A program made the translations under genes and the position numbers. Below the pieces are notes generated by a model. That model saw nothing but the letters and a program-made list of their open reading frames with translations. It had not been told where the DNA came from and searched no databases. This document shows, piece after piece, positions 32,707 to 45,021 of a DNA stretch of 49,588 bases. The stretch comes from a bacterium (GTDB lineage Bacteria; Zixibacteria; MSB-5A5; GN15; FEB-12). Location of the stretch: the NCBI GenBank assembly GCA_029211095.1, contig JARGFS010000004.1, forward strand, positions 1 through 49,588. Direction: 5' to 3'. How positions within the stretch are numbered: the stretch's first letter is position 1; each line of letters begins with the position of its first letter.

Positions 32707-34653
32707 ATGCGTGTAACATCGGGAATGATAACTGGCCGGGTGATTTTCAATTCGCAGCGATCCCTATCGCGCTTATTGCAACTCCAGGGACAGCTCTCGT
32801 CCGGGCGAAGAATCGAGCGCCCTTCGGATGATCCGGTGGGAACTCTTCGGGACCTGGACTATCGCAACGTGCTGGCCCAGAATGACCAGTACCTGAAAAA
32901 CATAAGCCGGGCCAAGACCTGGGCCCAGAATTATGATACCGTCCTGAGTGATCTCAAAGATATGGTGCAGCAGGCCAAGGATCTGACGATCACCATGTCT
33001 GATGATTCCGTCTCAACCGAGTCAAGAATCGGATCACATACAGTCGCAAAGTCTATTCTTGAACAGATAGGACAATTGGCTAACGGCAAATTGGATGGGA
33101 TGTACGTCTTCTCCGGTTTCCAGTCTGATACCCAGTCGCTGGATATCTCCGCCGACGGAGTGAGGTATCGTGGTGATCGAGGCTCAATTGAATACCCGAT
33201 AGAAGCGGCCTACAACAGCAAAGTCAATCTGATCGGTGACGATGTCTTTCTCAAGCAGCTGAAAACACTGGGGGCGGAGGCTGACCTCAATCTGGCCGTC
33301 AGCCCCAGCACCCTGCTGGCCAACCTGAATTCCGGCAACGGGGTTGATCTTCTCAGCGGCGGAACTTTTGAGATTACGGATGAGACTCTGGGGGTCACAG
33401 CTACTATCGATATTTCGGGCGCTGCGACCATAGATGATGTCATTACAGCCATTAATACGCAGCTACCTCCGACAATCTCCAACTTGACCTTTGGGATCGC
33501 CGGGGCGGGCAACGCGCTCTCAATTGATATTGACGAGTCCGCTCCTCGACTTGTAAATGACGGAACACTTCTGTCAGATATCAACGAAGGGCACAGTCTG
33601 GACCTTTCCTATGGCCGGATGCGGCTGACCGACGGAGCCGGGATAAATATGGATGTCGACTTCAACAGCCCGGCAATCCCTGTGACCGTGGGGGATTTGC
33701 GCAATGCCTTCAATACCCAAATGGCTGCCTATGGTCCGCCGCTGGACAATGTTTCAATGCAATTGAATGCGGCTGGGACCGCCCTTGAAATCTTAGATGC
33801 CAATGGCGTTCCGGTTGGATTGTCGGTTGCAGAAGTAAACCCGGATTCCACTACCGCCGCCGATCTCGGACTGCTTGGAAATATTGGGGCTTCACTCACG
33901 GGACACGACCTGAAACCGAGCTACAAATTCAGTATCAATGATATCGCCGGTACAACGGCGGCTGATCTCGGGATTGTGGACGAATATAGAAGTGATGGCA
34001 CCGGTACCGATCTCAACCCTATTCTGACGGCCGCTACCGCCGCTGCCACCAGCCTTTCCGACCTCAACAATGGAGCCGGATTCAGCGGTAACGAGATGGT
34101 TTTCTGGCAGGGTCAGGTTTCGGAGACGTTTGATATCTCTTCGGTAAGCACAGTCCAGGAACTACTGGACCTGTTCAATAGCTCCTACCTGGATATTACG
34201 GCGGAATTGAACTCCAGCGGGACCGGAATCCAGATCAGCAATAATGACCCTACGCTTTCCTTCTCCATTGAAGATGTGGGGGATGGAACGCTGTCCAAAG
34301 AGCTGGGACTGTTTGGGGCTGCTGACATGATGGCTTCGCTGACTATGCTGACCAAAGCATTAAAGAACGATGATCGTGAAGGTGTCTCGTTGCTGATGCA
34401 GAATTTTGATGACGCCATTGATCATCTTCTGGAAAAGCGTTCGACCACCGGCTCCCACATGGCGAGGCTGGAGACAACAGAATACCGCCTGTTGGACCAG
34501 AAATTGACATACACTAAGCTTCTATCAGAAGTAGAAGATGCCGACATAACGGATCTAATTACACAATTGACCACTCAGGAAAACAACTATCAGGCTTCGC
34601 TGATGGCGGCGGCTAAAATTGTCCAGCCGACATTGGTTGATTTCCTGAGGTGA
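32707..34653 (+). CDS. flgL: Flagellar hook-associated protein FlgL (HAP3), enlarged
   Basis: At 648 residues this is about twice the usual FlgL. The ends are typical: 'MRVTSGMITGRVIFNSQRSLSRLLQLQGQLSSGRRIERPSDDP' and 'DADITDLITQLTTQENNYQASLMAAAKIVQPTLVDFLR'. The centre carries three flagellin-hook-IN-like repeats starting near residues 204, 289 and 450 ('L.DLN.G.G', then a 'T..DV..A.N' segment and 'ADLGL'). FlgL is the second junction protein below the filament. The repeats probably form exposed surface domains. Confidence 0.93.
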   Translation: MRVTSGMITGRVIFNSQRSLSRLLQLQGQLSSGRRIERPSDDPVGTLRDLDYRNVLAQNDQYLKNISRAKTWAQNYDTVLSDLKDMVQQAKDLTITMSDDSVSTESRIGSHTVAKSILEQIGQLANGKLDGMYVFSGFQSDTQSLDISADGVRYRGDRGSIEYPIEAAYNSKVNLIGDDVFLKQLKTLGAEADLNLAVSPSTLLANLNSGNGVDLLSGGTFEITDETLGVTATIDISGAATIDDVITAINTQLPPTISNLTFGIAGAGNALSIDIDESAPRLVNDGTLLSDINEGHSLDLSYGRMRLTDGAGINMDVDFNSPAIPVTVGDLRNAFNTQMAAYGPPLDNVSMQLNAAGTALEILDANGVPVGLSVAEVNPDSTTAADLGLLGNIGASLTGHDLKPSYKFSINDIAGTTAADLGIVDEYRSDGTGTDLNPILTAATAAATSLSDLNNGAGFSGNEMVFWQGQVSETFDISSVSTVQELLDLFNSSYLDITAELNSSGTGIQISNNDPTLSFSIEDVGDGTLSKELGLFGAADMMASLTMLTKALKNDDREGVSLLMQNFDDAIDHLLEKRSTTGSHMARLETTEYRLLDQKLTYTKLLSEVEDADITDLITQLTTQENNYQASLMAAAKIVQPTLVDFLR

Positions 34654-34673
34654 TTATAGGAGAGCCAAGAAGT

Positions 34674-35162
34674 ATGCGCTTTACAACCCGCAGATTTGGA
34701 GAGTTGGATGTCCCGAACGACAAGCTGATCAAAATGGCGCGTCCGCTGTTGGGATTTGAAAAACTCGAGACTTTCTGCATGATCGAATCGGAAGAGATGG
34801 CCCCGTTTCTCTGGCTTCAGTCGACCGAGGATCCGGAGGTTGCTTTCATAATTGTAAATCCCAGGTTGTTCTACCCGGATTACAAGATCGAAGTAAACCG
34901 GGCCGAAGTGGCTGAACTCAGGATCAACGATGTTCATCAGGTAGAGACCTATGTAATTGTGACGATTCCGACTGAGTCGACCAGAATATCGGTCAACCTT
35001 CAGGGGCCCGTCCTGGTCAACACCGAGAATAATCTGGGTCGTCAGCTGGTCATGGTCAATTCTGATTATGGCATCAAGCACTTCATTCTGGATGAAGTCC
35101 CCGATGCAATTGAAACAGACAGGGTAAAGGCTGCTCGTGAGGAAGAGCTGATACCGGTCTGA
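34674..35162 (+). CDS. fliW: Flagellar assembly factor FliW
   Basis: FliW binds flagellin and, when free, sequesters CsrA, so it couples flagellin synthesis to export. The 162-residue protein begins with the typical 'MRFTTRRFGELDVPNDKLIKMARPLLGFEKLETFCMIE' and has 'PFLWLQSTEDPEVAFIIVNP' and 'LGRQLVMVNSDYGIKHFIL'. AGGAG at 34658-34662 supports ATG 34674. A GTG at 34650 overlapping the flgL stop is possible. Confidence 0.95.
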   Translation: MRFTTRRFGELDVPNDKLIKMARPLLGFEKLETFCMIESEEMAPFLWLQSTEDPEVAFIIVNPRLFYPDYKIEVNRAEVAELRINDVHQVETYVIVTIPTESTRISVNLQGPVLVNTENNLGRQLVMVNSDYGIKHFILDEVPDAIETDRVKAAREEELIPV

Positions 35163-35228: not shown

Positions 35229-38200
35229 ATGAATAAGAGCAGGACGCCACAGCCTCGCAAGGACTCTCTGACTGCCACGAAAGTGCAGTCGGCTCCCAAT
35301 AAGAACCGACCCACGACAGTCGGGCAGGCCCTATCACTTGCCCAGCTGCTGATAAATGAGAATCGTTGGGGCAGGATGTTGGAGATTCTCACGCCATTCA
35401 AAGAGAAAGCAGACAGGGCCAGCGCATACGAACAGAATGCCTACTATCGGCTGTACTCCCTGGCGCTGCTAAATGAAAAGAGAGTGGAGGAACTGGAAGA
35501 GATCCTACGGTCGTTCCGCGCCCTTGCTCCGGACTCACTCGATTTAGCCTATCTGGAGTGTGGTCTGGCGGCTCTCATGCGGGAGCATGAATCAACCGTC
35601 AGTAACGGAATACGCTACCTCAGATTGCTTGGGGAGAAAAGCAGCAATGAATATCTGACCAACAATTCAGTCAGTCATGGCACGCTTTGCTTCTGGTTGG
35701 GGGAGGGCCAAAAAGCGCTGGGGAATTATGAAGAGGCACGTGACGCGTACAACCACGCGATCAAGCTGCTGCCAGAAAATCAACGTCCGTATCTTGCCTT
35801 AGTCTCACTTTTGAAAGCGACGGATGATACCGAGTCGGCAGAAAAATGGATTGCAACCGGGATCGGAAATTGCCCGGAGAATACCGAGTTAAGAATTCTG
35901 CAGGATTCCCTCAAGAAAAGACCGACTATTTCCGCCTGTATGATCGTACGCAACGAAGAGACAATGTTGTCTGCCTGCCTGGATTCTATCCGTGACTGGG
36001 TCGATGAAATTATCCTCGTCGACACCGGCTCCACTGATCGCACCCCGGAGATTGCATCCGAATACCGGGCAAAAATATACCATCAGCAGTGGCAGGATGA
36101 CTTTTCATTCCATCGCAACTACTCAATCTCTCAATCGAATTCTGATTGGATATTGATCATCGATGCTGATGAGCGGATTCCGCGGGAAGATGTAGCCGAG
36201 ATCAAGTCCGCTATCGGCGATTCCAACAATAGTCTCATATCTTTGACAATAGAAAATGTAACCCCCGGTGGGGATCGCATTTCCAGTCTGACCAGTTCCG
36301 TCCGGCTTTTCAAAAGAGAGCTCGGCCTTAAGTACAATGGTATCGTGCATAACGAATTGGTCCTGCCACCTAACGAACGAATAATAGCGGTGCCTTCGCG
36401 AATCAGGCATCTCGGGTATAATCTTGATCTGGGCCGGATGAGCGAGAAATTCCAGCGCACCAAACGGCTTCTGGAAAAGCAGGTTAAGTCAGAGCCCAAC
36501 AACCCGTTTGCCAGTTTCAATTATGCGCAGCAGTTATGCAACGAGGATAGTAATTACGGCACCAACAACGCCACTACGGTTATAGACAATGCTAATAAGA
36601 CAATAGAGCTGTCTCAAAATGAGCGAGGTCGCAGGCATCTATGGATGATGTCGCTGCATCAGCTGGCCCGAGCCTACTTCAATCTTCAGGACTACCAACG
36701 CGCCCGGAACTATTGCCTTCAGGCGGTAGCCATGAAACCAAATTATCTGGACGTCCTGATTCAGGCTGGTTTTTGCAGTGTGAAATTGGAAGAGTATGAT
36801 ATCGCCGCTGATTGGTTCAAGAGCTATCTCAACTACCAGAAAGAGTTTGATCCGATCAGGGACACGGAGTCGCTGATCATCTGGCACTATGACAGTCGTG
36901 TCCTGGTATTAAACAATCTCGGGTTGATCGCGGAGATGTCGGGTGCCTACAAGGAGGCCGGAGAGTACTACCGGCAGGTTTTGGAACTTGACCCGGAGCA
37001 TGACAATGCCCGCACTCGGCTCAATGCTATCAAAGCTGGTCAGGTTGCCACCCCACTTACCGGGCCGGTTTCCACCGCCGATCCACGTCAACAACTCTTG
37101 GTCGCGAGACAGGCCTGCTTCAATCATCAGCCGGACCATGCGGTAGAAATACTGTGTTCAATCAATAAATCCGAACTGAATCCAGAGCAAGCCCTGGAAT
37201 ATTATCGGCTCAGTGCGCATTCATATCTGGCTTTGGGTCGTTTTGTCGATGCCGAACATTCAATAACGGCAGCTCGCAGCGAAGGGCATGATTCGATCGA
37301 TTTTGACTATGTGGAGAGCCAGGTTAAACTGAAATTACGAGACTATACCGGCGCTGGCAACGCTGCCGATTCGTACCTGGCCAGACTAAAAGCAAAAACA
37401 ATTACGCCGGAGGATATTTCGACAACCGACCGCCACGTCAGTCAACTGTATGATACGCGTGCTGTCGCCAAAATTTATGTCGGAACACCGGACGAGGCCA
37501 GAGACGACTTTGAAGAAGCAATCAGGCAGGACCGAGGTAATCAATCTCCATATCTTGGCTGCGTCAGGCTGTTGCGCTCCCGCGGGGAATATGAGCAGGC
37601 TGATAAACTTCTGGCCGAAGGGATCAAACACTGTTCCGATGTTCAGGAATTGAGACTGATGTCTGAGTGGTCCAGGCAGAAGGTAAGTATCTCCGCCTGT
37701 ATGATTGTTAAAGATGAAGAGAAGCTGCTCCCCGGTTGTCTTGATTCGATCCGAGACTGGGTCAATGAAATCGTTATTGTAGACACCGGTTCTTCGGACA
37801 GAACCGTTGAGATTGCAAAATCGTACGGAGCGAAGGCGCTTTATCAGCAATGGGAAGGAGACTTCTCCAAGCACCGGAACTACTCCATTGAGCAGGCGAC
37901 CTCGGACTGGGTCTTCATCATTGATGCTGATGAGCGCTTTGAGCAGGAAGATATCTCAAAACTCCTTCAGATAGTAAATGATCCGGAGCCTCAGGCAATA
38001 TCAATCAACGTCTTCAACTATTATCAGCAAGCCGACCATAAAGTAACTTCGGTCAACTCGCTTCGGTTTTTCCGCCGGGAGTTGAACCTGCGATATGAGG
38101 GAATCGTCCACAATCAGATTAATATACCCGAAGGACTGGTAATTACTCGGGCTCCAATCAGTCTCCGCCATCTCGGTTATGATCTTGATCCGGAGGCAAT

Positions 38201-39623
38201 GGCGCGTAAATTTGAGCGGACGCGTGCGCTTCTGGAAGAGCAGCTGGAGAAGAATCCGGAGTTTGCCTTTGGATGGTTCAATCTGGCCCAGCTCTACCGG
38301 GGGCACCTGTTCGAGAATCCTCAGGAATACGGCAAGAAGATCATCGCGGCCTCTACAAAAGCTATCGAGCTAACTTCGGCTGAAGTCACCACCGAACGAT
38401 ACGTACATTTGATGGCTCTGGACCAACTGGCCTGGACCTGCTTTTATCTTGAGCGCTATTCAGAAGCTGAAAAGTGGGCTCGTCGGGCCTTGGAACACAA
38501 ATCAGATTATCTTGATCCGCTCATGTTGCTGGGACATATCTATGCGCAATCAAAGAGATACCCGGAGGCTATCGCGGCTTACCAGAACTACTTGGATACT
38601 CAGGCCGGTTATGATAGTGGTCGAGAATTTGAATCTCTCATTCTTATTCATCCGGACAGCCGGGCTACCGCTTACTTTGGGATCGGCTCGGCGGCTGAAA
38701 TGCTGGGTAATCTGAAACTGGCCAAGGAGAGTTATCTTAAAGCGCACGAGGCTACCCCGGGTTACCTGCAGGTCCCTCTTTGTCTGGGGCGAATATTCTT
38801 GAATGAAGGCGACCTTCCTCAGGCAGAGAAGTACCTGAAAATGCAACTGGAGAAGAAAGAACCTTCGGTGCACGCCCTGCTCGGATTGGCCCACCTTTAC
38901 ACGGTTCAGTCCAAAGAGGATGAAGCAGAACAGCAGCTATTGAAGGCATTGAATGAAAGCCCCTTGAATCCGAATGTATTGTCCCAAATGGCCGAATTCT
39001 ACACCCATACCAGTCGCCACAGCGATGCTTACCGGCTCCTGAGAGAGCTTCACCAGCTGATGCCGGACGACTCCGATATTAATCGCCGTTTCGGTGATAC
39101 CTGCTTTTCACTTGGGAGCTACCATGCCGCCTCGGAAATCTACCGCAAGCTCTTAGTTGAGCAGCCGGAGAATTCCTCACTACTCAACGATCTGGCCAAT
39201 TGCTGTTTCAAAACGGAACAGTTCCAGGAAGCTGAGCGGCTGTACCGGCAGGCTCTTACAACGGAAAGCGCCGATGTGATCGCTCTGAGGAATCTTGGGC
39301 TCTCACTGGTGAAACAGAATAAACCGCAGGAAGGGGCCGAGGTTTTTGAGAAATACCTTAATCTAATGCCAAATGACCACCAGATACGGCTGCTACTCGG
39401 AAATATGCTGGTGCAGATCGGTCGGTACGGCCAGGCTCTTGGCTGCTACGAGAGCTACCTGAAAGAAAACTCTTCTGACTCCGGCGCAATGGCCCGGATT
39501 GCGGATTGCTATCTGCTTATGGGACATGAGGATTCAGCTCTGGTCGGCTACCGTCAGGCACTCGCAATTGACCCAGGCTGCAGACATGCTCGGCAGCGGC
39601 TCGACCAGCTACAGGTGGTTTGA
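35229..39623 (+). CDS. Giant TPR protein with two GT2 glycosyltransferase domains (putative flagellin glycosyltransferase)
   Basis: The 1464-residue cytoplasmic protein has TPR-like repeats at about 35-230, 470-620, 640-815 and 1060-1460. Two family-2 glycosyltransferase domains start at residues 234 and 821, each with 'ISACMIV..EE.L...CLDSIRDWV.EI..VDTGS.DRT.EIA'. Each has its DxD motif ('IDADER') at 312-314 and 899-901, exactly 77 residues after the domain-start serine. Both nucleotide-sugar sites thus look intact. GT plus TPR units repeat with a constant 587-residue offset, pointing to internal duplication. Position between fliW and fliC suggests it glycosylates flagellin, with the TPRs holding the acceptor. 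The acceptor and sugar are not known. Confidence 0.85.
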   Translation: MNKSRTPQPRKDSLTATKVQSAPNKNRPTTVGQALSLAQLLINENRWGRMLEILTPFKEKADRASAYEQNAYYRLYSLALLNEKRVEELEEILRSFRALAPDSLDLAYLECGLAALMREHESTVSNGIRYLRLLGEKSSNEYLTNNSVSHGTLCFWLGEGQKALGNYEEARDAYNHAIKLLPENQRPYLALVSLLKATDDTESAEKWIATGIGNCPENTELRILQDSLKKRPTISACMIVRNEETMLSACLDSIRDWVDEIILVDTGSTDRTPEIASEYRAKIYHQQWQDDFSFHRNYSISQSNSDWILIIDADERIPREDVAEIKSAIGDSNNSLISLTIENVTPGGDRISSLTSSVRLFKRELGLKYNGIVHNELVLPPNERIIAVPSRIRHLGYNLDLGRMSEKFQRTKRLLEKQVKSEPNNPFASFNYAQQLCNEDSNYGTNNATTVIDNANKTIELSQNERGRRHLWMMSLHQLARAYFNLQDYQRARNYCLQAVAMKPNYLDVLIQAGFCSVKLEEYDIAADWFKSYLNYQKEFDPIRDTESLIIWHYDSRVLVLNNLGLIAEMSGAYKEAGEYYRQVLELDPEHDNARTRLNAIKAGQVATPLTGPVSTADPRQQLLVARQACFNHQPDHAVEILCSINKSELNPEQALEYYRLSAHSYLALGRFVDAEHSITAARSEGHDSIDFDYVESQVKLKLRDYTGAGNAADSYLARLKAKTITPEDISTTDRHVSQLYDTRAVAKIYVGTPDEARDDFEEAIRQDRGNQSPYLGCVRLLRSRGEYEQADKLLAEGIKHCSDVQELRLMSEWSRQKVSISACMIVKDEEKLLPGCLDSIRDWVNEIVIVDTGSSDRTVEIAKSYGAKALYQQWEGDFSKHRNYSIEQATSDWVFIIDADERFEQEDISKLLQIVNDPEPQAISINVFNYYQQADHKVTSVNSLRFFRRELNLRYEGIVHNQINIPEGLVITRAPISLRHLGYDLDPEAMARKFERTRALLEEQLEKNPEFAFGWFNLAQLYRGHLFENPQEYGKKIIAASTKAIELTSAEVTTERYVHLMALDQLAWTCFYLERYSEAEKWARRALEHKSDYLDPLMLLGHIYAQSKRYPEAIAAYQNYLDTQAGYDSGREFESLILIHPDSRATAYFGIGSAAEMLGNLKLAKESYLKAHEATPGYLQVPLCLGRIFLNEGDLPQAEKYLKMQLEKKEPSVHALLGLAHLYTVQSKEDEAEQQLLKALNESPLNPNVLSQMAEFYTHTSRHSDAYRLLRELHQLMPDDSDINRRFGDTCFSLGSYHAASEIYRKLLVEQPENSSLLNDLANCCFKTEQFQEAERLYRQALTTESADVIALRNLGLSLVKQNKPQEGAEVFEKYLNLMPNDHQIRLLLGNMLVQIGRYGQALGCYESYLKENSSDSGAMARIADCYLLMGHEDSALVGYRQALAIDPGCRHARQRLDQLQVV
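35928..37030 (+). repeat. Internal duplication, copy 1 (GT2 plus TPR unit)
   Basis: Residues 234 to about 600 of the giant protein align with residues 821 to about 1190 at a constant offset of 587, covering the GT2 domain and the TPR pairs after it. Divergence at protein level is moderate, so the duplication is old. Confidence 0.7.
37689..38798 (+). repeat. Internal duplication, copy 2 (GT2 plus TPR unit)
   Basis: Second copy, residues 821 to about 1190. It keeps 'ISACMIVKDEE', 'WVNEIVIVDTGSSDRT', 'IDADER' and the later 'LRHLGYDLD' motif also found in copy 1 as 'IRHLGYNLD'. Confidence 0.7.
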
Positions 39624-42212: not shown

Positions 42213-44552
42213 ATGGCAGGCTTTAATTCCATATCAGGCTTAAATTCCGGGCTCGACACTCCCGGAATCATTGACGCCATCATGGCGTTTGAACGTCGCA
42301 ACACTAATCTCCTCGAAGAACAACAGGTTATAAAGCAGGCCACAATTACCGCCCTGCAATCGCTTCAGGCAAAATTCTTTGCCCTCAATTCACAACTGGG
42401 ACAACTCAAACTTGGATCGACCTTTGAACAGGGGACGGTTAGCTCTTCGGACAAAAACGTTCTATCAGCTTCGGCCAACGGAAGAGTACCGACCGGCAGT
42501 TATGATCTTAGAGTTTTGCAGTTGGCCAGTAATCACCAGATTGCCAGCCAGGGTTTTAGCTCGATAGATGAGAGCCTGTTTGGTAGTGGTGACATCAAAA
42601 TTACGGTTGGAAACGGATCAGAACAGGTTGTCACGGTAGGATCGGACAACAACAGCCTCAAAGGAATCAAGAACGCTATCAATGACGCGCGAATCGGGGT
42701 GACAGCTACGATCGTAAATGATGGCTCATCTTCGGACCCTTACCGGCTCATTCTTACCGGTGACAGTACCGGGGTTGCAAACAAAATTACAATCAACTCT
42801 AGCCTGATCGGGGGAGAGAACCTCAACTACAGCACTGCAACCTTTGGTAGTCCGGAGTCAGTAGTGATGAACACCGGCTCCAGTTCACAAGTCTCGCTGG
42901 GAGCAAGTGCCGCCTTCACCGGGAATGAAAATAAAATCTTTACATTCACAGTCCAGGGAACCGGAGAACAGACGATAGGCTCTGACAATATTACTATTAC
43001 CTGGTCCGATGGCGTGAATCCGGAACAGTCAATTGTGGTGACTCAGGCTGATACGGAAGTTGAATTGGTAGGAGCGGGGGCCGATGGGCTCAAGCTCTCC
43101 TTCGCGGCAGGCACTCTCACTGCCGATGACACTTTTCAGATTGCAACTTTTGCGCCGCTACTTCAAGAGGCGTCCGATGCTAAGCTCGCGGTAGGATCAA
43201 CCGGTGGAAGTGGCTCGCCCATCACGGTGACTTCGGCAACAAATACTTTCAACGATGTCATCGGCGGCGTTACCCTGAACGCCAACGGGATCAGCGAAAC
43301 AGGAACGAGTGTGAAGGTCAAGACCGATCTTGATGTTTCCGCTATCAAATCAAAAATTCAGGGATTCCTGGACGCCTTCAACGAAATTAACGAATATATT
43401 GATAAGCAGAATGCTTATACCCAAGATTCAGACTCGGCCCCGCCTCTATTTGGGGACTTTACTGTCTGGAATCTGCAGAATTCGCTCAGAAAGACCTTAA
43501 GTTCGGCTGTCAAAGGGCTGGACTCAAAATATAATCAACTGGCCACGCTGGGTATTCGGAGCAACGCCGAAGGAAACCTGACCATCAAAGACAGCTCTCG
43601 GTTAGAAACGGCTCTTCGCGAAAATCTGGATGATGTCATAAACCTCTTTACCGATGCCGGCAATTCCAGCAATGCCAATATCGAGTTTATCTCCTCCGCC
43701 TCCGCTACAGTAGCCGGACAGAACTACGCTGTAAACATCACTCAGCCCCCCACCCACGGTGGATATCGAGGCGCGGGTCTCAGCGACCCAGCCACGACAC
43801 CGATTACATTGGACGCTACCAACAACCGGCTGAAGTTGAAAATCGATGCGATTGTGTCCGATGAAATCGCTCTTGACCAGCGGGAGTACACCACCTATGC
43901 AGAATTGGTTGCGGAACTACAGAGCAAAATAGATAACGATGACAAGATCGGTTCTCTCGGCGTGGAAGTAAAATGGGTGGAGACCGGAGCCGGGAGTGGC
44001 TACCTGGAATTGGTAAGTCCCAATTACGGCGAGACCTCCAAAATAGAATTGATCAGCTCAATCTCAAACACGGCATATTCTGTGCTCGGTCTGGCTACCG
44101 GCACTCAGGTGGCCGGTAAAAATGTGGCCGGGACCATCAATGGCGAAGCCGCCACAGGCAATGGTGTCCTTCTTACCGGAGACGAAGACAACAAGACCAC
44201 GGCCGGACTCAAATTGAAAATACTACTTGATGAAGCTGATGTCGGAGACGGCGCCGAGGGTACCATATATGTTACCAAGGGTGTGGCCTCGCAGCTCAAT
44301 GATCTGGTCAAGAGCTACACGGCTTCAAAGGACGGGATTCTGGACCGGCGTATTTCCAGTTTCCAGGCCCAAATTGACTATCTCTCAAAACGGGTCGCGG
44401 AAAATGACAAGTATTTGAGTCTGAGGCGGGAGTCTCTGACGCGGCAATACTATGAAATGGAACTCGCCCTGGGAGAGCTCAATAGCCAGAGTTCTTTCCT
44501 GACCTCACAATTGGATAGCATCAATATGAACTGGAAATTCAATCAGAAATAA
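42213..44552 (+). CDS. fliD: Filament cap protein FliD (HAP2)
   Basis: The 779-residue protein begins with 'GFNSISGLNSGLDTPGIIDAIMAFERRNTNLLEEQQ' and has 'GSYDLRVLQLASNHQIASQGF', the N-terminal FliD domain. The C-terminal FliD domain includes 'VKGLDSKYNQLATLGIRSNAEGNLTIKDSSRLETALREN' and a final coiled coil 'LDRRISSFQAQIDYLSKRVAENDKYLSLRRESLTRQYYEME'. It is considerably longer than E. coli FliD (468), fitting the large flagellin whose folding it caps. GAGGAG before the ATG is the ribosome-binding site. Confidence 0.95.
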   Translation: MAGFNSISGLNSGLDTPGIIDAIMAFERRNTNLLEEQQVIKQATITALQSLQAKFFALNSQLGQLKLGSTFEQGTVSSSDKNVLSASANGRVPTGSYDLRVLQLASNHQIASQGFSSIDESLFGSGDIKITVGNGSEQVVTVGSDNNSLKGIKNAINDARIGVTATIVNDGSSSDPYRLILTGDSTGVANKITINSSLIGGENLNYSTATFGSPESVVMNTGSSSQVSLGASAAFTGNENKIFTFTVQGTGEQTIGSDNITITWSDGVNPEQSIVVTQADTEVELVGAGADGLKLSFAAGTLTADDTFQIATFAPLLQEASDAKLAVGSTGGSGSPITVTSATNTFNDVIGGVTLNANGISETGTSVKVKTDLDVSAIKSKIQGFLDAFNEINEYIDKQNAYTQDSDSAPPLFGDFTVWNLQNSLRKTLSSAVKGLDSKYNQLATLGIRSNAEGNLTIKDSSRLETALRENLDDVINLFTDAGNSSNANIEFISSASATVAGQNYAVNITQPPTHGGYRGAGLSDPATTPITLDATNNRLKLKIDAIVSDEIALDQREYTTYAELVAELQSKIDNDDKIGSLGVEVKWVETGAGSGYLELVSPNYGETSKIELISSISNTAYSVLGLATGTQVAGKNVAGTINGEAATGNGVLLTGDEDNKTTAGLKLKILLDEADVGDGAEGTIYVTKGVASQLNDLVKSYTASKDGILDRRISSFQAQIDYLSKRVAENDKYLSLRRESLTRQYYEMELALGELNSQSSFLTSQLDSINMNWKFNQK

Positions 44553-44583: not shown

Positions 44584-45021
44584 ATGGACGCTAAGCTGAA
44601 CACCTATCGGACAATAGATACGCTGGGTAAATCACAAATTGACCTGATTCTAAAAGTATACGACGGGGCGCTCAACGAATACCGGTCCAGCCGAGAGGCG
44701 GCTGAGAAAGAAGAGTATCACAACCTTCGCCCTCATCTGGAAAAAGCGGCCAAGTTCATCACTCATTTGTACACCACTCTGGACCCGAAAAAAGGGGGAG
44801 AGATTGCCGCCAATCTGGGGCAGTTGTACGCCCATATCCTGGGACTAACCGACCAGGTCGCGGCCACCAAAGAAATCAAAGTAATTGACGATATTATAAG
44901 CATACTGGAAAACCTCAGAGAAGGTTGGGCCGGTTTGAAACAACAGGAGGCAGACTTGGACAGTTCCGATTCCGAACGGGAATTGACACCGGAAACGGCC
45001 GAGTTTGCCATCACTGGCTGA
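44584..45021 (+). CDS. fliS: Flagellin export chaperone FliS
   Basis: FliS binds the C-terminus of flagellin and prevents premature polymerisation. The 145-residue helical protein has 'YRTIDTLGKSQIDLILKVYDGALNEYRSSREAAEKEEY', 'ITHLYTTLDPKKGGEIAANLGQLYAHILGLTDQ' and 'IDDIISILENLREGWAGL', a clear FliS pattern. GAGG precedes the ATG by six bases. It follows fliD. Confidence 0.94.
   Translation: MDAKLNTYRTIDTLGKSQIDLILKVYDGALNEYRSSREAAEKEEYHNLRPHLEKAAKFITHLYTTLDPKKGGEIAANLGQLYAHILGLTDQVAATKEIKVIDDIISILENLREGWAGLKQQEADLDSSDSERELTPETAEFAITG

Follow-up and report, generated by a model that had tools for sequence, protein, structure and literature searches.

The window analysed here, a stretch of 49,588 nucleotides from a Candidatus Zixiibacteriota MAG (3.06 Mb, 96.6% complete), contains flgL, fliD, fliS and further flagellar genes surrounding a long gene for a protein with two GT2 domains set among TPR arrays. 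The features relevant to this analysis are as follows, with residue numbers referring to the fusion protein:

32707..34653, + strand: flgL-like gene, 648 aa, with Flagellin_N/C domains
34650..35162, + strand: fliW (PF02623), directly upstream of the fusion gene
35229..39623, + strand: TPR-GT2-TPR-TPR-GT2-TPR fusion gene, 1464 aa, with two catalytic heads and a predicted role in flagellin glycosylation
35310..35912, + strand: N-terminal TPR arm, residues ~28-228, 47% identical to the sister species
35913..36458, + strand: GT2 head 1, residues ~229-410 (DTGS 265, DAD 312-314, GIVHN 371, HLGY 394)
36459..37064, + strand: TPR segment 3′ of head 1, ending in a cap like the C-terminus of the orthologues and then a linker
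37065..37673, + strand: second TPR arm, residues ~613-815, equivalent to the N-terminal arm of the orthologous C-half
37674..38228, + strand: GT2 head 2, residues ~816-1000, the orthologue of the only GT2 head in other Zixibacteria
38229..39620, + strand: C-terminal TPR superhelix, residues ~1001-1464, confidently modelled, with a fold resembling the OGT TPR superhelix
39909..42122, + strand: fliC (PF00669, PF00700), a 737-aa flagellin and presumed substrate
42213..44552, + strand: fliD (PF02465, PF07195)
44584..45021, + strand: fliS (PF02561)

The fusion gene is uninterrupted from its ATG to its stop codon, and Pfam recognizes Glycos_transf_2 in two stretches of its product (E 1.1e-43, 149.5 bits against a cut-off of 23.3), flanked by many TPR families. 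Each head carries a DxD motif, DAD at residues 312-314 and 899-901, and six motifs can be paired between the heads, namely SACMIV (235/822), DTGS (265/852) and HRNYS (295/882), followed by DADER (312/899), GIVHN (371/958) and HLGY (394/981). The spacing is exactly 587 residues in all six pairs. The gene ends 285 bp before the start of fliC and begins 66 bp after the end of fliW. The initial annotation, which described two DxD-bearing GT2 domains embedded in TPR arrays of one chain, repeated at a fixed offset of 587 residues and placed directly before fliC, is borne out in these respects. Aligned with each other, the N-half and the C-half are 38% identical over 524 residues (E 3e-109), and a low-confidence linker at residues ~571-615 marks their junction.

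Several properties of the neighbouring genes deserve mention in their own right. The flgL-like protein, at 648 aa, is matched in length by the versions of its relatives, and E. coli FlgL is approximately half as long. In FliD (779 aa) the match to FliD_C is broken into two pieces, a split shared by its relatives that suggests an inserted variable domain. A search for sigma-28 patterns returned results at chance level (32 found, 30.7 expected). A second, short flagellin is encoded on another contig of the genome (G000:C26:7703-8113, L174; open frame of 272 aa), and second flagellins of this kind (~260-300 aa) occur throughout the order, in single-head species as well; we therefore dropped the idea that each head acts on a flagellin of its own.

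The only other genome of the genus, an independent MAG from a sister species, encodes an equivalent fusion of 1467 aa with 69% identity, so the arrangement is neither a chance event nor an assembly artefact. Comparison of the two species shows that head 1 (74% identity) and head 2 (85%) are conserved, and that the TPR arms preceding each head have 46-47% identity. The N-terminal arm is one of the two fastest-diverging parts of the protein, and the second arm, at 46% identity, has a dN/dS of ~0.26; for most segments dN/dS has no value because synonymous sites are saturated between the two genes. In both species the N-half keeps 69 of the 76 columns conserved among orthologues. AlphaFold predicts a GT-A-like fold for both heads, with pLDDT mostly between 75 and 95 and a confident order of strands and helices. 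The C-half model is confident overall (mean pLDDT 90), and the placement of the heads relative to each other is unreliable (pTM 0.43). Judged by motif content and predicted fold, both heads are intact-looking transferases.

The origin of the two halves was addressed with a family tree of halves and orthologues built on 375 columns. The C-half groups with the orthologues of G036 and G020 and the N-half with those of G032 and G008, although the exact neighbour of the N-half is uncertain because it sits on a long branch. Constraining the halves to form one clade costs 21.5 log-likelihood units and is rejected by the AU test (p 0.002), so the halves did not arise by recent tandem copying. If one gene had duplicated internally not long ago and one of its heads were now decaying, the fixed 587-residue offset would be accounted for, but given this rejection and the conservation of both heads in the sister species we regard such a history as highly improbable. 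Judged by the tree, the protein is a head-to-tail fusion of two divergent paralogues, which revises the simple duplication originally proposed. The N-half ends with a C-terminal cap like that of the orthologues, followed by the low-confidence linker, an arrangement that would fit the head-to-tail joining of two genes. The N-half gene would then have lost most of its C-terminal TPR array.

Homologues of the fusion gene are widespread in the phylum and constant in position. We read one locus in each of 40 genomes of the order, and all 40 have the homologue within the fliW-fliC interval; fliC is the next gene downstream in 39, and the fortieth locus ends at a contig edge. The gene also occupies the corresponding region in further members of the class. 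The initial annotation had held that finding the fusion mainly away from flagellar genes would count against a role in flagellin modification, and this is not what these loci show. In the order loci outside the genus, the homologues have a single GT2 domain, mostly in frames of ~850-950 aa, and correspond to the C-half. Among 132 Zixibacteria genomes the gene is present in 95, and an uninterrupted frame longer than 1000 aa occurs only in the two species of the genus. The two-head fusion is thus restricted to one genus within the phylum, and the conserved unit is the single-GT2 form.

Presence of the gene closely follows that of FliD. Both occur in 86 of these genomes and neither in 30, with nine genomes containing only the gene and seven only FliD (odds ratio 41; Fisher p 2.6e-15, which is indicative only because the genomes are related). 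All nine gene-only genomes are less than 90% complete. Among the FliD-only genomes, G005 has the end of the gene at a contig edge, and G003 holds a head-less remnant in its place. Situated between fliW and fliC, this remnant (L161:4912-5874) is a protein of 320 aa made up of TPRs only. It aligns with the orthologues at both of their ends, and what it lacks is the GT2 domain together with the bulk of the C-terminal TPRs. Since G003 has fliC but no GT2 domain, the modification appears dispensable there.

A general cell-surface or exopolysaccharide glycosyltransferase residing at fliC by chance would be in keeping with related GT2 proteins found away from flagellar genes in other phyla, where 46 of the 80 loci in our genome scan have no flagellar genes in the stretch read. 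The constant position and the co-occurrence with flagella across Zixibacteria argue against this explanation, as does the lack of polysaccharide genes among the window genes scanned, and we consider it very unlikely.

Other genes occur in the fliW-fliC interval of relatives. In many Zixibacteria a gene for a TPR-linked GT4 separates fliW from the GT2-TPR gene (for example L050:5663-7264 and L044:6356-8161, among others); it is absent there in the fusion genus. Epimerase-like and methyltransferase-like genes have been added in two relatives. By analogy, these extra genes resemble the contents of a glycosylation island. One of the intervals, in G041, has both an epimerase-like and a methyltransferase-like gene, as in a larger island of this type, and contains a protein of 1168 aa (L073:10640-14146) that seems to unite TPR, GT4-like and GT2-like parts. 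Two further intervals hold TPR-only proteins between fliW and the GT2-TPR gene (L043:1886-2620 and L047:6822-7520); they share homology with the N-terminal region of the TPR-GT4 next to them and stop approximately where the GT4 domain would start. These appear to be TPR-GT4 remnants, and the catalytic domain has apparently been lost repeatedly with the TPR part retained.

The retention of TPR-only open frames after transferase loss at these three loci (L161, L043 and L047) could be read as favouring a moonlighting regulator, in which the TPR part governs flagellar gene expression or flagellin handling and glycosylation is secondary. There is precedent in Listeria GmaR, a bifunctional protein that acts both as flagellin GlcNAc-transferase and as MogR antirepressor (PMC9638930). 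Yet across phyla no part of the family is more strongly conserved than the residues of the GT2 motifs, and a Pfam search for a MogR-type repressor had no match in the fusion genome, nor in any control genome. On this balance, a mainly regulatory role seems unlikely.

The initial annotation had suggested looking for the same fusion next to fliC in other genomes. Besides the sister species, a genome-wide scan showed fliC to be immediately preceded by a chain of 1028-1144 aa that unites two GT2 domains with TPRs in Syntrophaceae UBA5761 (L087), Desulfobacterales S7086C20 (L091) and the proteobacterial MAG KR11 (L093). These chains share that architecture and position with the Zixibacteria fusion, but their heads are only ~406-421 residues apart and they lack the long N-terminal TPR arm. 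In a short domain tree with modest support, the heads of the chains from other phyla do not group with the Zixibacteria heads, and two-head forms elsewhere therefore probably arose separately. A fourth two-GT2 chain (L110) has fliC ~3.5 kb away, four more (L118, L120, L129 and L131) have no flagellar gene in the stretch read, and at L083, L092 and L095 two separate GT2 genes precede fliC instead.

The synteny with fliC, the co-occurrence with fliD and the identity of the closest solved relative, GmaR, lead us to interpret the gene as encoding a flagellin glycosyltransferase, and they lend strong support to its initial description as a candidate for this function. In the reading we favour and consider likely, the product is a cytoplasmic, soluble flagellin O-glycosyltransferase of the GmaR-like type, in which the TPR arms hold FliC and the second head probably provides a second reaction. 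We infer FliC as the acceptor and an O-linkage, and likewise the donor sugars and how the heads divide the work. The TPR arms would cradle cytoplasmic FliC that has yet to be exported, and each GT-A head would move a sugar from a nucleotide-sugar donor onto Ser/Thr residues of FliC, or onto a sugar already present on FliC, before export. In the fusion genus, the ancestral gene would have had a second and divergent TPR-GT2 gene joined to its front. Most likely, this would allow a bound flagellin to undergo a second reaction, with a further sugar or a further set of sites as the probable contribution of the second head. With the GT4 gene, many relatives have two different transferases in the interval. 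The fusion genus has two GT2 heads and no GT4 gene at this position, which is consistent with a second-sugar role of the second head comparable to that of the GT4 of its relatives.

How the two heads share the work is a matter for more cautious statements. They might form an assembly line with two active sites, in which FliC is held by the shared TPR superhelix and the first sugar, added by one head, is extended by the other, or a second region is modified. Such a line would have arisen twice, once in Zixibacteria and once among Desulfobacterota-type bacteria; we put this forward tentatively. Held with similar reserve is a dosage effect, whereby both heads perform the same transfer and the second only boosts the rate or the reach along FliC. 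The heads share their motif set and their best solved relative, and the Ser/Thr content of flagellin shows no obvious separation of double-head from single-head species, as simple dosage would allow; on the other hand, halves that are only 38% identical and belong to different branches of the family go beyond what dosage would need.

These results extend predicted flagellin glycosylation by TPR-linked GT2 proteins to an uncultured phylum, where almost every flagellated member seems to have it. The occurrence of single-head, double-head and head-less versions at one chromosomal position of related genomes constitutes a natural test of the division of labour between arms and heads. If the heads do act in sequence, the fusion would be a compact enzyme for two-step protein glycosylation, useful in glyco-engineering.

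Among known enzymes, the closest CHARACTERISED enzymes for both heads are the transferase domain of GmaR, followed by SunS/ThuS, with GmaR as best solved match for head 1 (E 6.8e-36) and head 2 (E 3.2e-29). GmaR transfers GlcNAc onto flagellin, and its TPR domain has been proposed to recognise flagellin (PMC9638930). The fusion protein resembles it in having a GT2 domain followed by a TPR or helical array and in its tie to flagellin, with modification predicted in our case, but GmaR has 637 aa, a single N-terminal head, no N-terminal TPR arm and the antirepressor domain whose partner is MogR (PMC9638930). SunS and ThuS likewise combine a GT-A domain with helical repeats and match in sequence and, by Foldseek, in the fold of the transferase part. 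Unlike the predicted flagellin transferase, they are peptide S-glycosyltransferases acting on glycocin peptides, and the fusion protein scores 193.7 bits against the SunS NCBIfam model TIGR04195, below its equivalog cut-off of 350 bits. The likeness to eukaryotic OGT (GT41) noted initially survives for the C-terminal TPR arm, whose superhelix is matched to OGT by Foldseek; it does not extend to the catalytic domains, which match the GT2 enzymes GmaR, SunS and ThuS and not OGT-type transferases.

We found no description of a two-head TPR-GT2 flagellin transferase in the open-access literature. In Clostridium, TPR-GT2 genes beside flagellins are predicted to encode flagellin glycosyltransferases (PMC13317340); as described there, they share the GT2 domain, the TPR repeats and the position next to flagellin with the fusion gene, and the passages considered describe no two-head chain. 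Caulobacter FlmG binds flagellin through its N-terminal TPR domain and needs both of its domains for modification, an example of flagellin specificity conferred by a TPR arm (PMC7591256). FlmG resembles the fusion protein, by description, in its modular arrangement of TPR arm and transferase, flagellin binding being a property of FlmG, and differs in having one transferase, for pseudaminic acid, in place of two GT2 heads. A search for Maf (PF01973), a flagellin nonulosonic acid transferase, had no match in the fusion genome, with matches only in archaeal controls, and since the NeuB matches in the genome are weak and partial, we claim no nonulosonic acid donor. Sequential action also has a precedent in C. 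difficile type B flagellin, on which GT1 adds GlcNAc and GT2 two rhamnoses (PMC5207246). Considered together, GmaR, the Clostridium TPR-GT2 proteins, FlmG and the C. difficile pair place the predicted function among known ones; the fusion protein is therefore very probably a flagellin glycosyltransferase of known kind, and its two-headed form is an unusual variant of the TPR-GT2 type.
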